Source: Ferruginibacter sp.
GTDB taxonomy: Bacteria > Bacteroidota > Bacteroidia > Chitinophagales > Chitinophagaceae
Direction: 5' to 3'
Assembly: GCA_025359625.1 (NCBI GenBank)
Contig: JANYFT010000089.1
Location: forward strand, 1-37,516
DNA: 37,516 bases
Made by a program: the position numbers and the translations under genes
Notes under the pieces: model-generated
Database searches by the model: none
Seen by the model: only the letters and a program-made list of their open reading frames with translations
What the model was told of the DNA's origin: nothing
Shown: piece by piece, positions 20,314 to 25,090 of the stretch
Position numbering within the stretch: the stretch's first letter is position 1
How the letters are laid out: each line of letters opens with the position of its first letter

Positions 20314-22380
20314 TTACATATTTCTTCTATACTCACCACCCACACTGTATAAAGTATGGGTAATTTGCCCAAGCGAACAATACTTTACGGTCTCCATTAA
20401 TTCAGTAAATAAATTACCGTTTGCTACCACAACATCCTGTAGTCGTTTTAACATCATGGCAGTTTTTTGTTGATGACGTTCCTGAAATAAGGTTACTGAT
20501 TTTATCTGGAACTCTTTTTCTTTTGAGGTACTTCTTATCACTTCTGTTGGCAAAATAGTTGGGCTGCCATTCTTATTTAAAAAAGTGTTTACCCCCACAA
20601 TAGGATAATCACCCGTATGCTTTTGCGTCTCATAATACAAACTTTCTTCTTGGATTTTATTGCGCTGGTACATACGTTCCATTGCACCCAGCACGCCCCC
20701 TCTTTCACTTAATCGTTCAAACTCAGCCAGCACAGCAGCTTCTACCAGGTCCGTTAATTCTTCTATTAAAAAAGCACCTTGGTTTGGGTTTTCATTTTTT
20801 GCAGTACCCAGTTCCCTGTTGATAATTAACTGGATGGCCATTGCCCTGCGTACGCTTTCTTCAGTAGGCGTTGTGATAGCTTCATCATAAGCATTCGTAT
20901 GCAGCGAATTACAATTATCATAAATGGCATAGAGTGCCTGTAGGGTTGTGCGTATATCATTAAAATCAATTTCCTGCGCATGCAATGAACGGCCAGATGT
21001 TTGAATATGATATTTTAATTTTTGGGAGCGGCTATTGGCTCTGTATTTATATTTCATCGTCTTGGCCCATATTTTTCTTGCCACCCGGCCAATCACACTA
21101 TATTCGGGATCCATGCCATTGCTAAAAAAGAAGGATAAGTTGGGTGCAAAATCATCAATGTTCATACCCCGGCTTAAATAATATTCTACATAAGTAAAAC
21201 CATTGGCCAGCGTAAAAGCCAATTGGGTAATGGGGTTGGCACCGGCTTCTGCAATATGATAGCCACTGATGCTTACACTGTAAAAATTCTGCACTTTATT
21301 TTCTATAAAGTATTCCTGCACATCACCCATCAATTTCAAAGCAAACTCTGTTGAAAAGATACAGGTATTCTGCGCCTGGTCTTCTTTTAAAATATCCGCC
21401 TGCACCGTTCCTCTTACGGTTGCCAAAGCATGCGCTTTTATTTTTTCATACACTTCTTTTGGCAAAACATCTTCCCCGCTTAAACCAAGTAAGCGCAGGC
21501 CTAAACCATCGTTGCCTTCTGGCAAATAACCAGCCCCCCCGCCCCCCGAAAGAGAGTTCTCAGATTCTACTACATTTGTTACATCATTTGCATTATTAGA
21601 AGTGGATGCAATTTTTTGTAATAGGGTATGATGTATTGCGTTGCCATCTTCACTAATGTATTTGGGTAATTTTTCAATTTCATATTTACTTTCAATCAGT
21701 TTATTTACTTCTTCCCTTAAATTATTTTCAATGATATATTTTTCGCATTGTTGATCAATAGCAGCATTCATAAAAAATGCCAGCAACATGGGTGCAGGGC
21801 CATTGATGGTCATGCTAACAGAAGTTTTAGCATCGCACAAATCGAACCCGCTGTACAACTTTTTTGCATCATCTACGGTAGCAATGCTTACACCGCTGTT
21901 GCCAACCTTACCATAAATATCAGGCCGGTGAGCCGGATCTTCGCCATACAGTGTAACACTGTCAAATGCAGTGCTGAGGCGCTTTGCAGGCTGGCCAAGG
22001 CTAACATAATGGAACCGCCTGTTGGTTCTTTCAGGGCCACCTTCGCCTGCAAACATTCTTGTTGGATCCTCGCCTTCTCTTTTTAAAGGGAACACGCCAG
22101 CGGTAAATGGAAATTCTCCCGGTACATTTTCCTGCAACTGCCACTTAAGTATATCTCCCCAATCTTTGTATTTGGGTAAATACACTTTACTTATTTTTGT
22201 GCCGCTTAATGATTGGTAAGTTAACTCTTGTTTTATTTTTTTGCCCCTTACATCAAATTCAAAAAAATCACTTTCATATTGTTTCAATATGGCAGCCCAT
22301 TGCTCCATCAATTTTTTAGCATCAGGATGCAATTGCTTTTTCAGTTGATCGTATTTTTTTTTCAGTTCGTTTATTTGCAT
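20314..22380 (-). CDS. icmF: Mutase subunit of a split isobutyryl-CoA mutase (IcmF C-terminal part)
   Basis: This 688-residue protein corresponds to the acyl-CoA mutase domain of IcmF, the coenzyme B12 enzyme that interconverts isobutyryl-CoA and n-butyryl-CoA. The family wording is clear: [22 protein letters not shown] (58-79), then [23 protein letters not shown] (88-110). The FPFTAGVF stretch is of the IcmF type, unlike the RPWTIRQYAG of methylmalonyl-CoA mutase. [40 protein letters not shown] and [16 protein letters not shown] follow. It has no B12-binding domain or GTPase; these are encoded at 23645-25090. It starts 11 bases after the nuclease gene. A glycine-rich loop ([15 protein letters not shown]) is encoded by a GC tract (minus-strand G6CG7 at about 21534-21547), unusual for this AT-rich DNA. 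Confidence 0.93.
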
Positions 22381-22391
22381 ACACCAGGCAG

Positions 22392-23648
22392 TTATTTTCG
22401 TTTAGCAGATCCGGTTGTTTTCAGATTTATTTTTTTAAGAAACCGGTTTACTTCATCCTGCAGTTGCTTTGCAGAGGGGAGTTTATCTTTAAAGTTTTTG
22501 GGCAACGATTTGCTGAAGGTATATTCACTTACACCAATAGGATGATTGATATTGGTTAGTGCATAATCTACTTCTACATTATCTTTTCCGCCACATAAAA
22601 TAATACCCACGGATGGATTATCATGTTGCTGCCGCAATTGTTTATTTACCATGTTAAGGTAGCCGTTCATCTTACCGCTATGGGCCATTTCAAATTCATC
22701 CATTTTTAAATCGATCACAATAAAACTCCGCAAATACAAATGATAAAACAACAGGTCGACAAAATGTTCTTTTTTCCCTGTCATTAATTTTACCTGCCTT
22801 CCAACAAATGCGAAGCCTGCGCCCAACTCCATAATAAATTCCTGGATGTGTTTAATAAGATGATCTTCCAGTTCCCTTTCACTTACATGTTCGCCCATTT
22901 GAGGAAACCTGAAAATATAAGGGTCTTTCAAAATCTGGTTAGCCAGGTCGGCCTGCGGCTTTGGTAATGTTAAATGAAAGTTGGAAGCCTTTTTTGTTTT
23001 ATGCTGCCGCAGGTATAAGTCTGTATCTATCTGGTATTGCAATACGGCACGGCTCCAATTATTTTCGATGGTTTTATTGATGTACCAAAAGCGTTCTTCA
23101 TAGTTATTTATCTTATCCATCAAAGTAACATGATGCCCCCATGGAATATTGATCAGCACTGGGTTTGAGAGATAATATATCTTATTGCTGAATTGTGCAA
23201 CAGGCTGTTGCACAATTGAACTCTCCGCAATTTTTATTAGTTGGCCAACAGGTTGCGGGCGGCTTATTTTTGTATCGCCCTTTTTAATAACCGCAGCAGG
23301 CTGCTGTGTAATAACTGAAACCTTTTTATTTTTTGCCAATTGTGCAACAGGCTGTTGCACAATTAGCAAATCAGGATATGACACTGCATATTTTTGCATG
23401 TACTTCAGGCTTCTTATTGAAAAGCCCTGCATGTCAGGAAACTCCTTTTGCAAATCATCTGATAACTGCCCTATCACTTTTGTTCCCCATCCTTCTGCTT
23501 CAATTTTATCTGCTATTTGCTTCCCGATATACCAATACAGTATCAGCATATCATTGTTTACCTTCAATGCAGTTTGCAACCGGCTTTGATGAATATTGCT
23601 TTTTAATTCACCCAGCCATTGGTTATATTTTTTTACAGGTGTTTTCAT
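22392..23648 (-). CDS. YhcG-family (DUF1016) PD-(D/E)XK nuclease-like protein with internal repeat block
   Basis: A 418-residue protein. The N-terminal DUF1016 domain (about 8-92, with [10 protein letters not shown] and [14 protein letters not shown]) precedes four repeats (about 95-153) and the diverged native copy NIPWGHH (167-172). The DUF1016 core ([17 protein letters not shown]-like LKDPYIFRF) and the nuclease domain (about 255-390) follow: [12 protein letters not shown], Asp298 in HFVDLLFYH, then Asp313-Leu-Lys315, where most relatives have Glu-x-Lys. The fold belongs to the PD-(D/E)XK nucleases. The biological role of YhcG proteins is poorly known; some lie near restriction systems. 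The start codon overlaps the stop of the preceding icmF half as ATGA, so it is translationally coupled in the mutase operon. It has no evident metabolic link and looks inserted (inference). Confidence 0.9.
23191..23364. repeat. Four tandem 48-51 bp repeats with palindromic cores inside the YhcG-family gene
   Basis: Centres lie at 23204, about 23252, 23300 and 23351 (spacing 48, 48, 51 bases, all multiples of three). The outer copies, 23191-23217 and 23338-23364, are identical perfect palindromes of 27 bp with half-site AATTGTGCAACAG around a central G. The third copy keeps CAGCAG-G-CTGCTG (23294-23306), and the second keeps only CCAACAGGTTG. Each encodes a form of IVQQPVAQ (copies ITQQPAAV and SRPQPVGQ are the diverged ones), joined by charged linkers. 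In mRNA each outer copy would fold into a strong hairpin. Confidence 0.9.
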
Positions 23649-25090
23649 TTTTCTTCATTCATCATTTTTATTACGCCATCTAATTGATATAGTTTAGTGG
23701 CAATAGCAGCCTGTTCGTCTGTCCATGTGTTATATGCTGTAATGGTTTCTGCAATTTCTGCCAGGTACCTTACCCGCTTTGGCGGAATGATAGTTGATTG
23801 ACTTACTGTATTTTTTACATGTGCTTGGTGCTCAATTTCGCCATTGAATTGAACACTTGTTTTCTCTGCTATTTTTTCCATCAATCTCTCAAACAATTCG
23901 TTTATGCCGGCATCATTAAACTGTGCGGCAATGGTTCTTGCAATGGGCAGTTCTTCGTCTTTGGTATTCCATAAACCGTGGCTGCGTTTGTATTGTTTGC
24001 GTACATCATGCAGGGCATCCAATGCACCGGTCTTATCAAATTTATTGATGCAAATCACATCGGCATAATCCAGCATATTTATTTTTTCCAGTTGTGACGG
24101 GGCTCCATATTCTGGTGTCATCACATACATGCTGATATCTACATACTCCAAAATAGACGCATCACTTTGCCCCACACCGGCACTTTCTACAATTATAAAA
24201 TCATATCCTGCTGCCTTGCAGATTTCAATAGCTTCCCGTACATATTTGCTCAATGCTTTATCACTTTCCCTGGTGGCAAGGCTACGCATATATGCCCTTG
24301 GTGAAGAAATCGAATTCATGCGAATACGATCTCCTAATAATGCACCACCCGTTTTTTTCTTGGATGGATCAACTGAAATTACAGCGATGGTTTTATCTGT
24401 ATAGGCATTTAAAAAACGGCGTACAATTTCATCTGTGACAGATGATTTACCAGCACCGCCTGTGCCGGTGATGCCGAGAACGGGGCACTTATGCATTAAA
24501 ATTTTCGGGCTGTTTTCTTTTAGATTGTTAATATATCCTGTAATATTTTTGCCGTTTTCTGTAAGTGTAATTGCCCTGGCAACTTTTTTAATATCCCGAT
24601 TTTCTCCTAACGCAAAACTATCTGAAGCAGGGGTTTCAAAGACTTCAACTTCTGGGAACAGGAAGGTTTCGCTGCATTTATTTATTACATCCTCAATCAT
24701 ACCTTCCAAGCCCATCTGCCTTCCATCATCGGGACTATATATCCTGGTGATGCCATAGTTGTGCAATTCCTTAATTTCTCCTGGCAAAATTGTTCCGCCG
24801 CCACCGCCAAATATTTTTATGTGGCCGCAATCATTTTCGTTCAGCAGATCTTTCATGTATTTAAAAAACTCTACATGGCCTCCCTGATAACTTGTAATGG
24901 CAATGCCGTGCACATCTTCTTCAATGGCACATTCCACAATTTCATGTACGCTCCTGTTATGACCCAGGTGAATTATTTCTGCGCCCTTGCTTTGCAGAAT
25001 ACGGCGCATTATATTGATGGCGGCATCGTGTCCGTCAAACAGGGCTGCGGCGGTTACAATACGTATTTTATTTTTTGATACAAAGTTCAT
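23645..25090 (-). CDS. icmF: B12-binding and GTPase subunit of a split isobutyryl-CoA mutase (IcmF N-terminal part)
   Basis: A 481-residue protein matching the first two thirds of the IcmF fusion. The cobalamin-binding domain (about 8-140) has FDGHD with Asp19-x-His21 as the lower cobalt ligand region, then SYQGGH and FGGGGG. The MeaI-type chaperone GTPase (about 200-430) has the P-loop GTGGAGKS (209-216), the SVDPSKKKTGGALLGDR switch region, ESAGVGQSD, and the base-specificity motif NKFD. The C-terminal tail IPPKRVRYLAEIAETI ... ATKLYQLDGVI is the IcmF linker that normally continues into the mutase. Here it stops at 23645, inside the start codon of the nuclease gene. It is first in the operon, with a promoter at 25128-25160. 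The GTPase protects and reloads the B12 cofactor of the mutase encoded at 20314-22380. Confidence 0.93.
   Translation of the reverse strand: MNFVSKNKIRIVTAAALFDGHDAAINIMRRILQSKGAEIIHLGHNRSVHEIVECAIEEDVHGIAITSYQGGHVEFFKYMKDLLNENDCGHIKIFGGGGGTILPGEIKELHNYGITRIYSPDDGRQMGLEGMIEDVINKCSETFLFPEVEVFETPASDSFALGENRDIKKVARAITLTENGKNITGYINNLKENSPKILMHKCPVLGITGTGGAGKSSVTDEIVRRFLNAYTDKTIAVISVDPSKKKTGGALLGDRIRMNSISSPRAYMRSLATRESDKALSKYVREAIEICKAAGYDFIIVESAGVGQSDASILEYVDISMYVMTPEYGAPSQLEKINMLDYADVICINKFDKTGALDALHDVRKQYKRSHGLWNTKDEELPIARTIAAQFNDAGINELFERLMEKIAEKTSVQFNGEIEHQAHVKNTVSQSTIIPPKRVRYLAEIAETITAYNTWTDEQAAIATKLYQLDGVIKMMNEEK

Follow-up and report, generated by a model that had tools for sequence, protein, structure and literature searches.

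How does the gene for a single-chain enzyme come to be carried as two genes, and why does a nuclease gene stand between them? The question is raised by a stretch of 37,516 nucleotides (nt) from Ferruginibacter sp. (assembly GCA_025359625.1, contig JANYFT010000089.1, positions 1 to 37,516; hereafter the window, its genome being G000), in which icmF, the gene for the fused isobutyryl-CoA mutase, is divided into two halves that flank a gene of the DUF1016/YhcG family of PD-(D/E)XK nucleases. We consider it probable that this middle gene is a mobile, homing-like nuclease gene that resides in the icmF linker and splits its host gene, and the data suggest that in some soil and water bacteria it moves between species like a selfish homing gene. 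By comparison of sequences, we establish the insertion site, the clade of resident nucleases, their spread together with flanking icmF sequence, a mosaic allele, a decay series and the conservation of both icmF halves.

The split icmF locus and its nuclease

The locus comprises the following features, of which the two border tracts were measured on the split allele of another Ferruginibacter genome, G022, and projected onto the window.

23645..25090, minus strand: first half of IcmF, 481 amino acids (aa), with the B12-binding domain, the MeaI/MeaB-type GTPase and the start of the linker
23645..23780, minus strand: 5′ border tract (tracts of this kind move with the nuclease)
23645..23648, minus strand: ATGA, a 4-base overlap of the nuclease start with the first-half stop
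22392..23648, minus strand: DUF1016/YhcG PD-(D/E)XK nuclease gene, 418 aa, a member of the icmF-resident clade
23340..23362, no strand assigned: palindrome TTGTGCAACAG.CTGTTGCACAA, second copy within the nuclease gene
23193..23215, no strand assigned: perfect palindrome TTGTGCAACAG.CTGTTGCACAA within the nuclease gene, encoding QQPVAQ
22381..22391, minus strand: 11-nt gap from the nuclease stop to the start of the mutase half
22120..22380, minus strand: 3′ border tract (tracts of this kind move with the nuclease)
20314..22380, minus strand: second half of IcmF, the acyl-CoA mutase part, 688 aa

The positions of the open reading frames (ORFs) and the sequence itself bear out the gene order, coordinates, overlap and gap given in a first-pass annotation of this DNA, and the DUF1016 identity that it assigned to the middle gene is confirmed by Pfam matches to DUF1016_N (7e-38) and YhcG_C (9e-59), both above the gathering score. 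The first half has B12-binding and MeaB domains (Pfam) and covers positions 1-467 of the NCBIfam model for IcmF, NF045497; the last gene has an MM_CoA_mutase domain and matches the same model through its final position, 1076. All three parts of the model (B12, GTPase and mutase) are present across the two halves, which score 659 and 1101 bits, each below the single-chain cut-off of 1500 bits. Because the first half aligns up to residue 500 of the C. metallidurans IcmF chain (4xc6; variant 8ssl) and the second from residue 529, the break falls in the inter-domain linker, as the annotation had proposed. In the excerpted text of PMC10481361, the IcmF linker is a separately coloured region between the GTPase and the substrate-binding domain. 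The likeness to the fused enzyme as described there (4xc6) extends to all three parts, their order and the conserved residues; the difference is that the fused enzyme is one chain, whereas the window encodes two, with the break in the linker before the substrate-binding domain.

The DGHDA motif lies at residue 19 of the first half and the P-loop near residue 209. We took as conserved those positions that are invariant in one half of the fused rows, the other 26 fused rows being held out. Split rows keep 97.6% of these positions in the first half (28 rows) and 98.9% in the second (30 rows), and the held-out fused rows keep 98.9% and 99.3%, respectively. By this measure both halves look conserved. 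The two may reassemble into an active enzyme. No second icmF was seen in the genome of the window (93.6% complete, in 461 contigs), where the other matches are two pieces on one contig with 37% and 44% identity.

Among the 13 complete nucleases that we find between icmF halves (referred to here as residents), the nuclease start overlaps the first-half stop as ATGA in seven and as GTGA in one, with other spacings in five. The three genes of the window are probably read as one transcript. A promoter scan gave 18 promoter-like sites (18.5 in shuffled sequences), and a terminator scan gave 7 weak terminator-like sites (4.8 in shuffles). The QQPVAQ palindrome has no copy in the genome of the window beyond the two in the nuclease gene when up to two mismatches are allowed. 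By eye, a 3′ border resembling that of the window (..AATAA.TG.CTGGT.TATG) is also present in G504 and in the nuclease-free G016 and G486.

The nuclease resembles the DUF1016/YhcG family (PF17761 and PF06250) in having both domains above cut-off and in its active site; the D...(D/E)xK residues are kept, and D298 and K315 are invariant in all 44 aligned homologues. Its profile gave no sequence match to solved structures. A fold model (mean predicted local distance difference test score, pLDDT, 75; predicted template-modelling score, pTM, 0.49) shows a weak resemblance to Can2 nucleases and to repair endonucleases of the EndoMS type, with a best E of 1e-5 and a TM-score of 0.23 to the query. In the excerpted text of PMC1189080, the YhcG family is of unknown function and without obvious gene association, except for one type I restriction cluster; here, by contrast, a single clade is bound to one gene and one site. 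ORFs longer than usual for DUF1016 (556-571 aa) were also seen at L233, L234, L235 and L236, in G517, G595, G244 and G334.

Fused, split and occupied alleles

A match to the mutase part (threshold 1e-100) is found in 84 of 93 genomes of the genus Ferruginibacter, and among the matches listed most icmF genes are a single frame of about 1100-1200 aa. At least eight of the 84 genomes have a split icmF, a lower bound, as contigs ending within icmF were left out. A complete nuclease stands between the halves in four of these (G000, G022, G040 and G502). In G504 the contig starts with the C-terminus of the nuclease, followed by the mutase half, so that the gene is seen as a fragment at the contig end; G016, G486 and G488 have a split icmF with no gene between the halves. 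Comparison with related Chitinophagaceae thus finds fused, split and nuclease-bearing split alleles, the fused form being the usual one in Ferruginibacter. The survey of the whole family used part of the matches in 341 genomes, and no family-wide split rate is drawn from it.

Altogether, 14 icmF loci are occupied: G000, G022, G040, G502, G504 (the fragment), G334, SJ21, ACE13, G453, G332, G438, G084, G591 and G632. G084, G591 and G632 belong to another family, and the remaining loci span several genera of Chitinophagaceae; G334 is the named strain Terrimonas sp. NS-102, and G332 is a single-contig genome of 4.7 Mb. In SJ21 and G632 one icmF half runs past the contig end. Another 11 loci have a split icmF without a nuclease ORF (G016, G486, G488, G199, G460, G405, G431, G473, G404, G472 and G452).

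The relatives of the nuclease point to the same site. We scanned 84,980 species genomes with the four nearest nucleases and kept the best 80 of 171 relatives. Among these 80, the seven closest (77, 74, 72, 61, 60, 56 and 46% identity) all lie between icmF halves, and none of the other 73 has icmF within up to 6 kb on either side. Profile searches of 396 genomes of the order and 394 of the family (threshold 1e-105) gave 33 loci besides the window, seven of them with both icmF halves in the 1.5-kb flanks; among the 26 without, identity to the nuclease of the window exceeds 50% only in G374 and G151. In a nuclease tree of 36 chosen rows, the 13 residents together with G374 and G151 form one clade (96/100). 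Because the scan of species genomes missed G084, the residents are undercounted, and their number is a lower bound. The same linker site is thus occupied across species by one nuclease lineage, two members of which lie elsewhere, and the nuclease is a recurrent, mobile resident of one site, which the first-pass annotation had missed.

Searches for a vector gave no close relative of the resident nuclease among plasmids (464 of 72,556 records match, all below 60% identity), among phage records (15 of 50,697, all below 60%) or among viral contigs, where a search needing an exact short peptide gave three loci at 40-44%.

Several loci depart from the linker split described above. In three loci of another family (L262 in G061, L049 in G081 and L051 in G093), the first part stops after the GTPase, at about residue 415, and in G061 the mutase part, including the linker, is ∼11 kb distant. 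L250 (G252) has a mutase half with no first half within the 8 kb read, and a first-half match elsewhere in the genome. In contrast to the linker splits, the icmF frame of L048 (G085) is interrupted by a 24-nt gap inside the mutase part.

Converted flanks and the decay series

The body of icmF (first-half residues 1-400 and the second half beyond residue 80; 956 columns) and its border (the 101 columns adjoining the insertion, about 50 residues on each side) conflict over the split alleles. The tests use 26 of 81 rows, all from Ferruginibacter, in groups named by split state after the first tree had been seen. On the body, a single clade of the six split alleles is rejected (log-likelihood difference 232.8; approximately unbiased test, p-AU, 4e-61; 26 taxa), as is one of G000 and G022 alone (p 5e-6), whereas the border tree unites all six (100/99). 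The body pairs G022 with the fused G044 (96/99) and joins G016/G486 to the fused G492 (100/98); the borders reject the pair (p 1e-11) and the group (p 0.0003). As a control, nine fused-only groups were tested on the borders, and eight are unrejected (lowest p 0.085). In these alignments, the borders of fused alleles carry some conflict, and that of the split alleles is far stronger. Larger body trees, enriched for split loci, have 81 and 80 rows (G632, too short, is dropped from the latter); the 80-row tree requires at least 14 changes between fused and split, and at least 10 changes in nuclease presence.

A single allele displays the conflict along its length. Of the 19 windows of 40 residues that start at residues 1-361 in the first half of G022, 15 have 98% identity or more with the fused G044, and four fall in a variable stretch; beyond these 19 windows the sequence turns to G000. 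The first three windows of the second half are 80, 88 and 98% identical to G000 versus 34, 55 and 82% to G044, and beyond this beginning the sequence turns back to G044. Third codon positions switch in step. Informative nucleotides bracket the two switch points: one lies ∼60-130 nt before the nuclease start, the other ∼180-300 nt inside the second half. G022 thus appears to be a fused-type icmF converted only around the insertion, which is the expected trace of a cut recipient repaired from an occupied donor, and which ordinary recombination could also leave. The sequences are therefore consistent with transfer accompanied by co-conversion of flanking icmF, into a host gene that is uninterrupted in close relatives. 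As for the earlier proposal that the nuclease gene inserted into an ancestral icmF linker without destroying function, entry into fused alleles at the linker is upheld by the fused sisters of split alleles and by the mosaic G022, and both halves look conserved; the ancestral part is less secure, as the very first insertion may have hit a gene that was already split.

Synonymous divergence (dS) is lower in the nuclease than in the comparable icmF halves in four pairs: G040/G502, G000/G022, G334/SJ21 (second half only) and ACE13/G453, for which the nuclease has 0.32 and the icmF halves 0.52 and 0.67. G000/G040 is saturated and goes in the opposite direction, and G084/G632 gives no value. The ratio of nonsynonymous to synonymous divergence (dN/dS) of the nuclease is 0.04-0.09 in the five pairs, out of six, that give a value.

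Residents at different stages of loss are also found. In G453 an in-frame deletion of 58 residues takes out the (D/E)xK strand, which its close relative ACE13 retains. G372 has a 261-nt relic, with pieces of the start, middle and C-terminus of the nuclease (best tblastn 1e-6). By eye, a palindrome similar to the one in the nuclease gene is present in the gap of G016/G486, whose 3′ border resembles that of G504; a similar palindrome is seen in the emptied split of G460. One body clade of five contains G332 (complete nuclease), G372 (relic) and G404, G472 and G452 (empty); in this clade, therefore, the nuclease was probably lost while the split persisted. The sequences thus fit a cycle of invasion, decay and loss, in which most empty sites have no significant remnant.

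Mechanism, alternatives and related insertions

The following series of steps would account for these observations. The nuclease gene would bring two starts and a stop: its own start (whose ATGA ends the upstream half), its own stop codon, and a further start from which the downstream half is read. One enzyme gene would thereby become a three-gene operon with two enzyme subunits that reassemble; the host would survive because the linker tolerates the break. Made by translational coupling from the icmF message, the nuclease would most likely cut uninterrupted linker alleles, as free-standing homing endonucleases do, and thereby drive its own spread. Repair or recombination through icmF on both sides would copy the nuclease, with ∼60-300 nt of border on each side, into other species. 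After occupation the nuclease would decay and disappear, leaving the split icmF as a scar.

Nuclease genes between gene halves have some precedent. ‘Fractured genes’ with split inteins and a free-standing endonuclease were reportedly described in 2009 (Dassa 2009); these are alike in having a nuclease gene between two gene halves, and differ in their split inteins, no intein pieces being reported at the ends of the icmF halves. I-Ssp6803I, a bacterial PD-(D/E)XK homing endonuclease, shares the catalytic class of our nuclease and is borne on an intron, whereas the window with the icmF locus has no intron match in Rfam. The excerpted text of PMC3943268 lists PD-(D/E)xK as one of six homing families and names I-Ssp6803I. 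The closest parallels come from the excerpted text of PMC2988022, in which the free-standing homing endonuclease gene mobE splits nrdA of Aeromonas phage Aeh1 into halves that form an active enzyme, and mobA likewise splits a topoisomerase gene of T4; homing of T4-type elements co-converts flanks, and the mobE start overlaps the upstream stop in T-even phages. The icmF locus shares with mobE/nrdA the splitting of an enzyme gene in two, the start/stop overlap and the co-conversion of flanks. It differs in lying in bacterial chromosomes of many species rather than in a phage, in having a PD-(D/E)XK DUF1016/YhcG rather than an HNH nuclease, and in its B12 enzyme, whose split form is known from sequence alone, while that of mobE/nrdA is active by experiment. 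Among titles and abstract openings of the open-licence part of PMC, with the subscription literature outside the search, we found no report of homing by DUF1016/YhcG or of a split IcmF of this kind.

Several observations weigh against a nuclease that drives its own spread. G374, which has no icmF match at the thresholds used, and G151, in which icmF is fused and the nuclease elsewhere in the genome, place two members of the clade outside icmF, and a clade of residents alone (p 0.149) is unrejected yet not the best tree. The residents are old (the nucleases of G000 and G022 have 77% identity), so that no very recent transfer has been caught. In the splits of G016, G486 and G460, tblastn matches to the nuclease are not significant, and no remnant was found in those of G488, G199, G405, G431, G473, G404, G472 and G452. 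One fused body clade of seven rows, which includes G493/G047, is weakly rejected by the borders (p 0.020; 0.044 without the split rows), and in the border tree the split clade has as its nearest neighbours G493/G047 and G406, all fused (91/79 and 94/91). PADLOC models for PDC-S02, a candidate defence protein, match the nuclease (best 3e-131; a sequence label only), and other DUF1016 genes occur in restriction operons. Finally, the split allele could also spread by ordinary recombination.

The alternative that survives best, although we regard it as rather unlikely, is that the nuclease is a passive passenger, perhaps an anti-phage defence gene, which landed once in icmF, the split allele then spreading undriven by homologous recombination or gene transfer. 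It predicts the same mosaic pattern, and it gains from the PDC-S02 label, from the mild conflict at some fused-allele borders, and from an ATPase (AAA_15) such as defence systems often contain, which occupies the same split in G087 (with a similar fragment in G591). However, a useful defence gene need not remain at a single site. What is seen is what would be expected of a driver: one nuclease clade has occupied one site again and again, the converted tracts have the nuclease at their centre, residents decay to nuclease-free splits, and the active site is intact and of nuclease type.

It is very unlikely that the split is ancestral in these families, with icmF re-fused many times and the nuclease entering a gap between two genes. 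Nuclease-free splits do form whole groups in some genera (G405, G431, G473) without remnants, and the earliest insertion may have entered a gene that was split beforehand. The strong conflict between border and body belongs, however, to the split alleles, eight of the nine fused-only groups being compatible on borders, and the fused form is common in Ferruginibacter; rather than unfused halves unrelated to DUF1016 genes, the survey shows a split minority in which five genomes have the nuclease, one only as the contig-end fragment. We therefore reject a general ancestral split as the main account.

Domestication, in which the nuclease gene, by standing between the halves, would keep subunit levels in balance or regulate the enzyme, seems most improbable. 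The tight coupling on both sides in most residents and the strong purifying selection on the nuclease would fit it, and the first-pass annotation had the nuclease gene keeping the two subunits in ratio. Against this role stand the 11 split loci without a nuclease ORF, the relic in G372 and the active-site deletion in G453, and it is not needed, because the halves of G065 and G096 are found on separate contigs; we reject it. There is virtually no chance that the arrangement is an assembly error, a frameshift or an intron/intein artefact: for all that the window comes from a genome in 461 contigs, the same order recurs in 12 further loci (including the named strain and the single-contig genome), so that it is neither chance nor a single bad assembly, the frames are complete with their own starts and stops, and an intron or intein is ruled out by the lack of an Rfam match in the window at the gathering threshold and of any reported splicing domain (Pfam, NCBIfam) in either half.

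With a homing-like resident preferred, its implications can be considered. Homing nucleases that split a gene yet leave its halves working have been described in phages; the icmF case recurs in cellular chromosomes, affects a metabolic B12 enzyme and involves a nuclease family described as of unknown function or as candidate defence. For DUF1016/YhcG, it points to a function that can be put to the test. It also supplies a series, found in nature, of alleles that are fused, invaded, decaying or scarred, and a naturally two-chain IcmF for asking whether a covalent link between GTPase and mutase is needed. On a wider proposition our opinion is evenly balanced, namely, that DUF1016/YhcG is at least partly a new family of free-standing homing endonucleases, one Chitinophagales lineage of which breaks up the gene of a metabolic enzyme, passes from species to species and decays, the splits being permanent; selfish nucleases would thus be a route from multi-domain to multi-subunit bacterial enzymes.

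Other insertions were also seen in icmF and by DUF1016 genes. In G037 (L053:2804-6910) a fused IcmF of 1368 aa has a DUF559 domain (PF04480) in frame between its B12 and GTPase domains, flanked by repeated SPPKGETLKD-like peptides. In G087 (L044:2671-4336) the halves are parted by the AAA_15 ATPase gene (374 aa; weak PADLOC matches to AbiLi, GajA and Old) and a 182-aa gene without a family match, with no nuclease. In G591 (L229:2896-3334) the ∼440 nt between the resident nuclease and the mutase half include a piece similar to the ATPase of G087 (46% over 37 aa, E 4e-4). In G490 (L079:2656-6061) a DUF1016 gene of another clade stands between argC-like and argD-like genes, so named from Pfam. 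The argD-like protein has a match in 31 of 59 Ferruginibacter genomes (G490 not among them). Among the best 30 of these 31 loci, the argC-like gene was unseen within the stretch examined in three; in the other 27 it lies upstream, with 0-481 nt between and no relative of the G490 nuclease. This one case suggests that packed housekeeping operons other than that of icmF also receive insertions.

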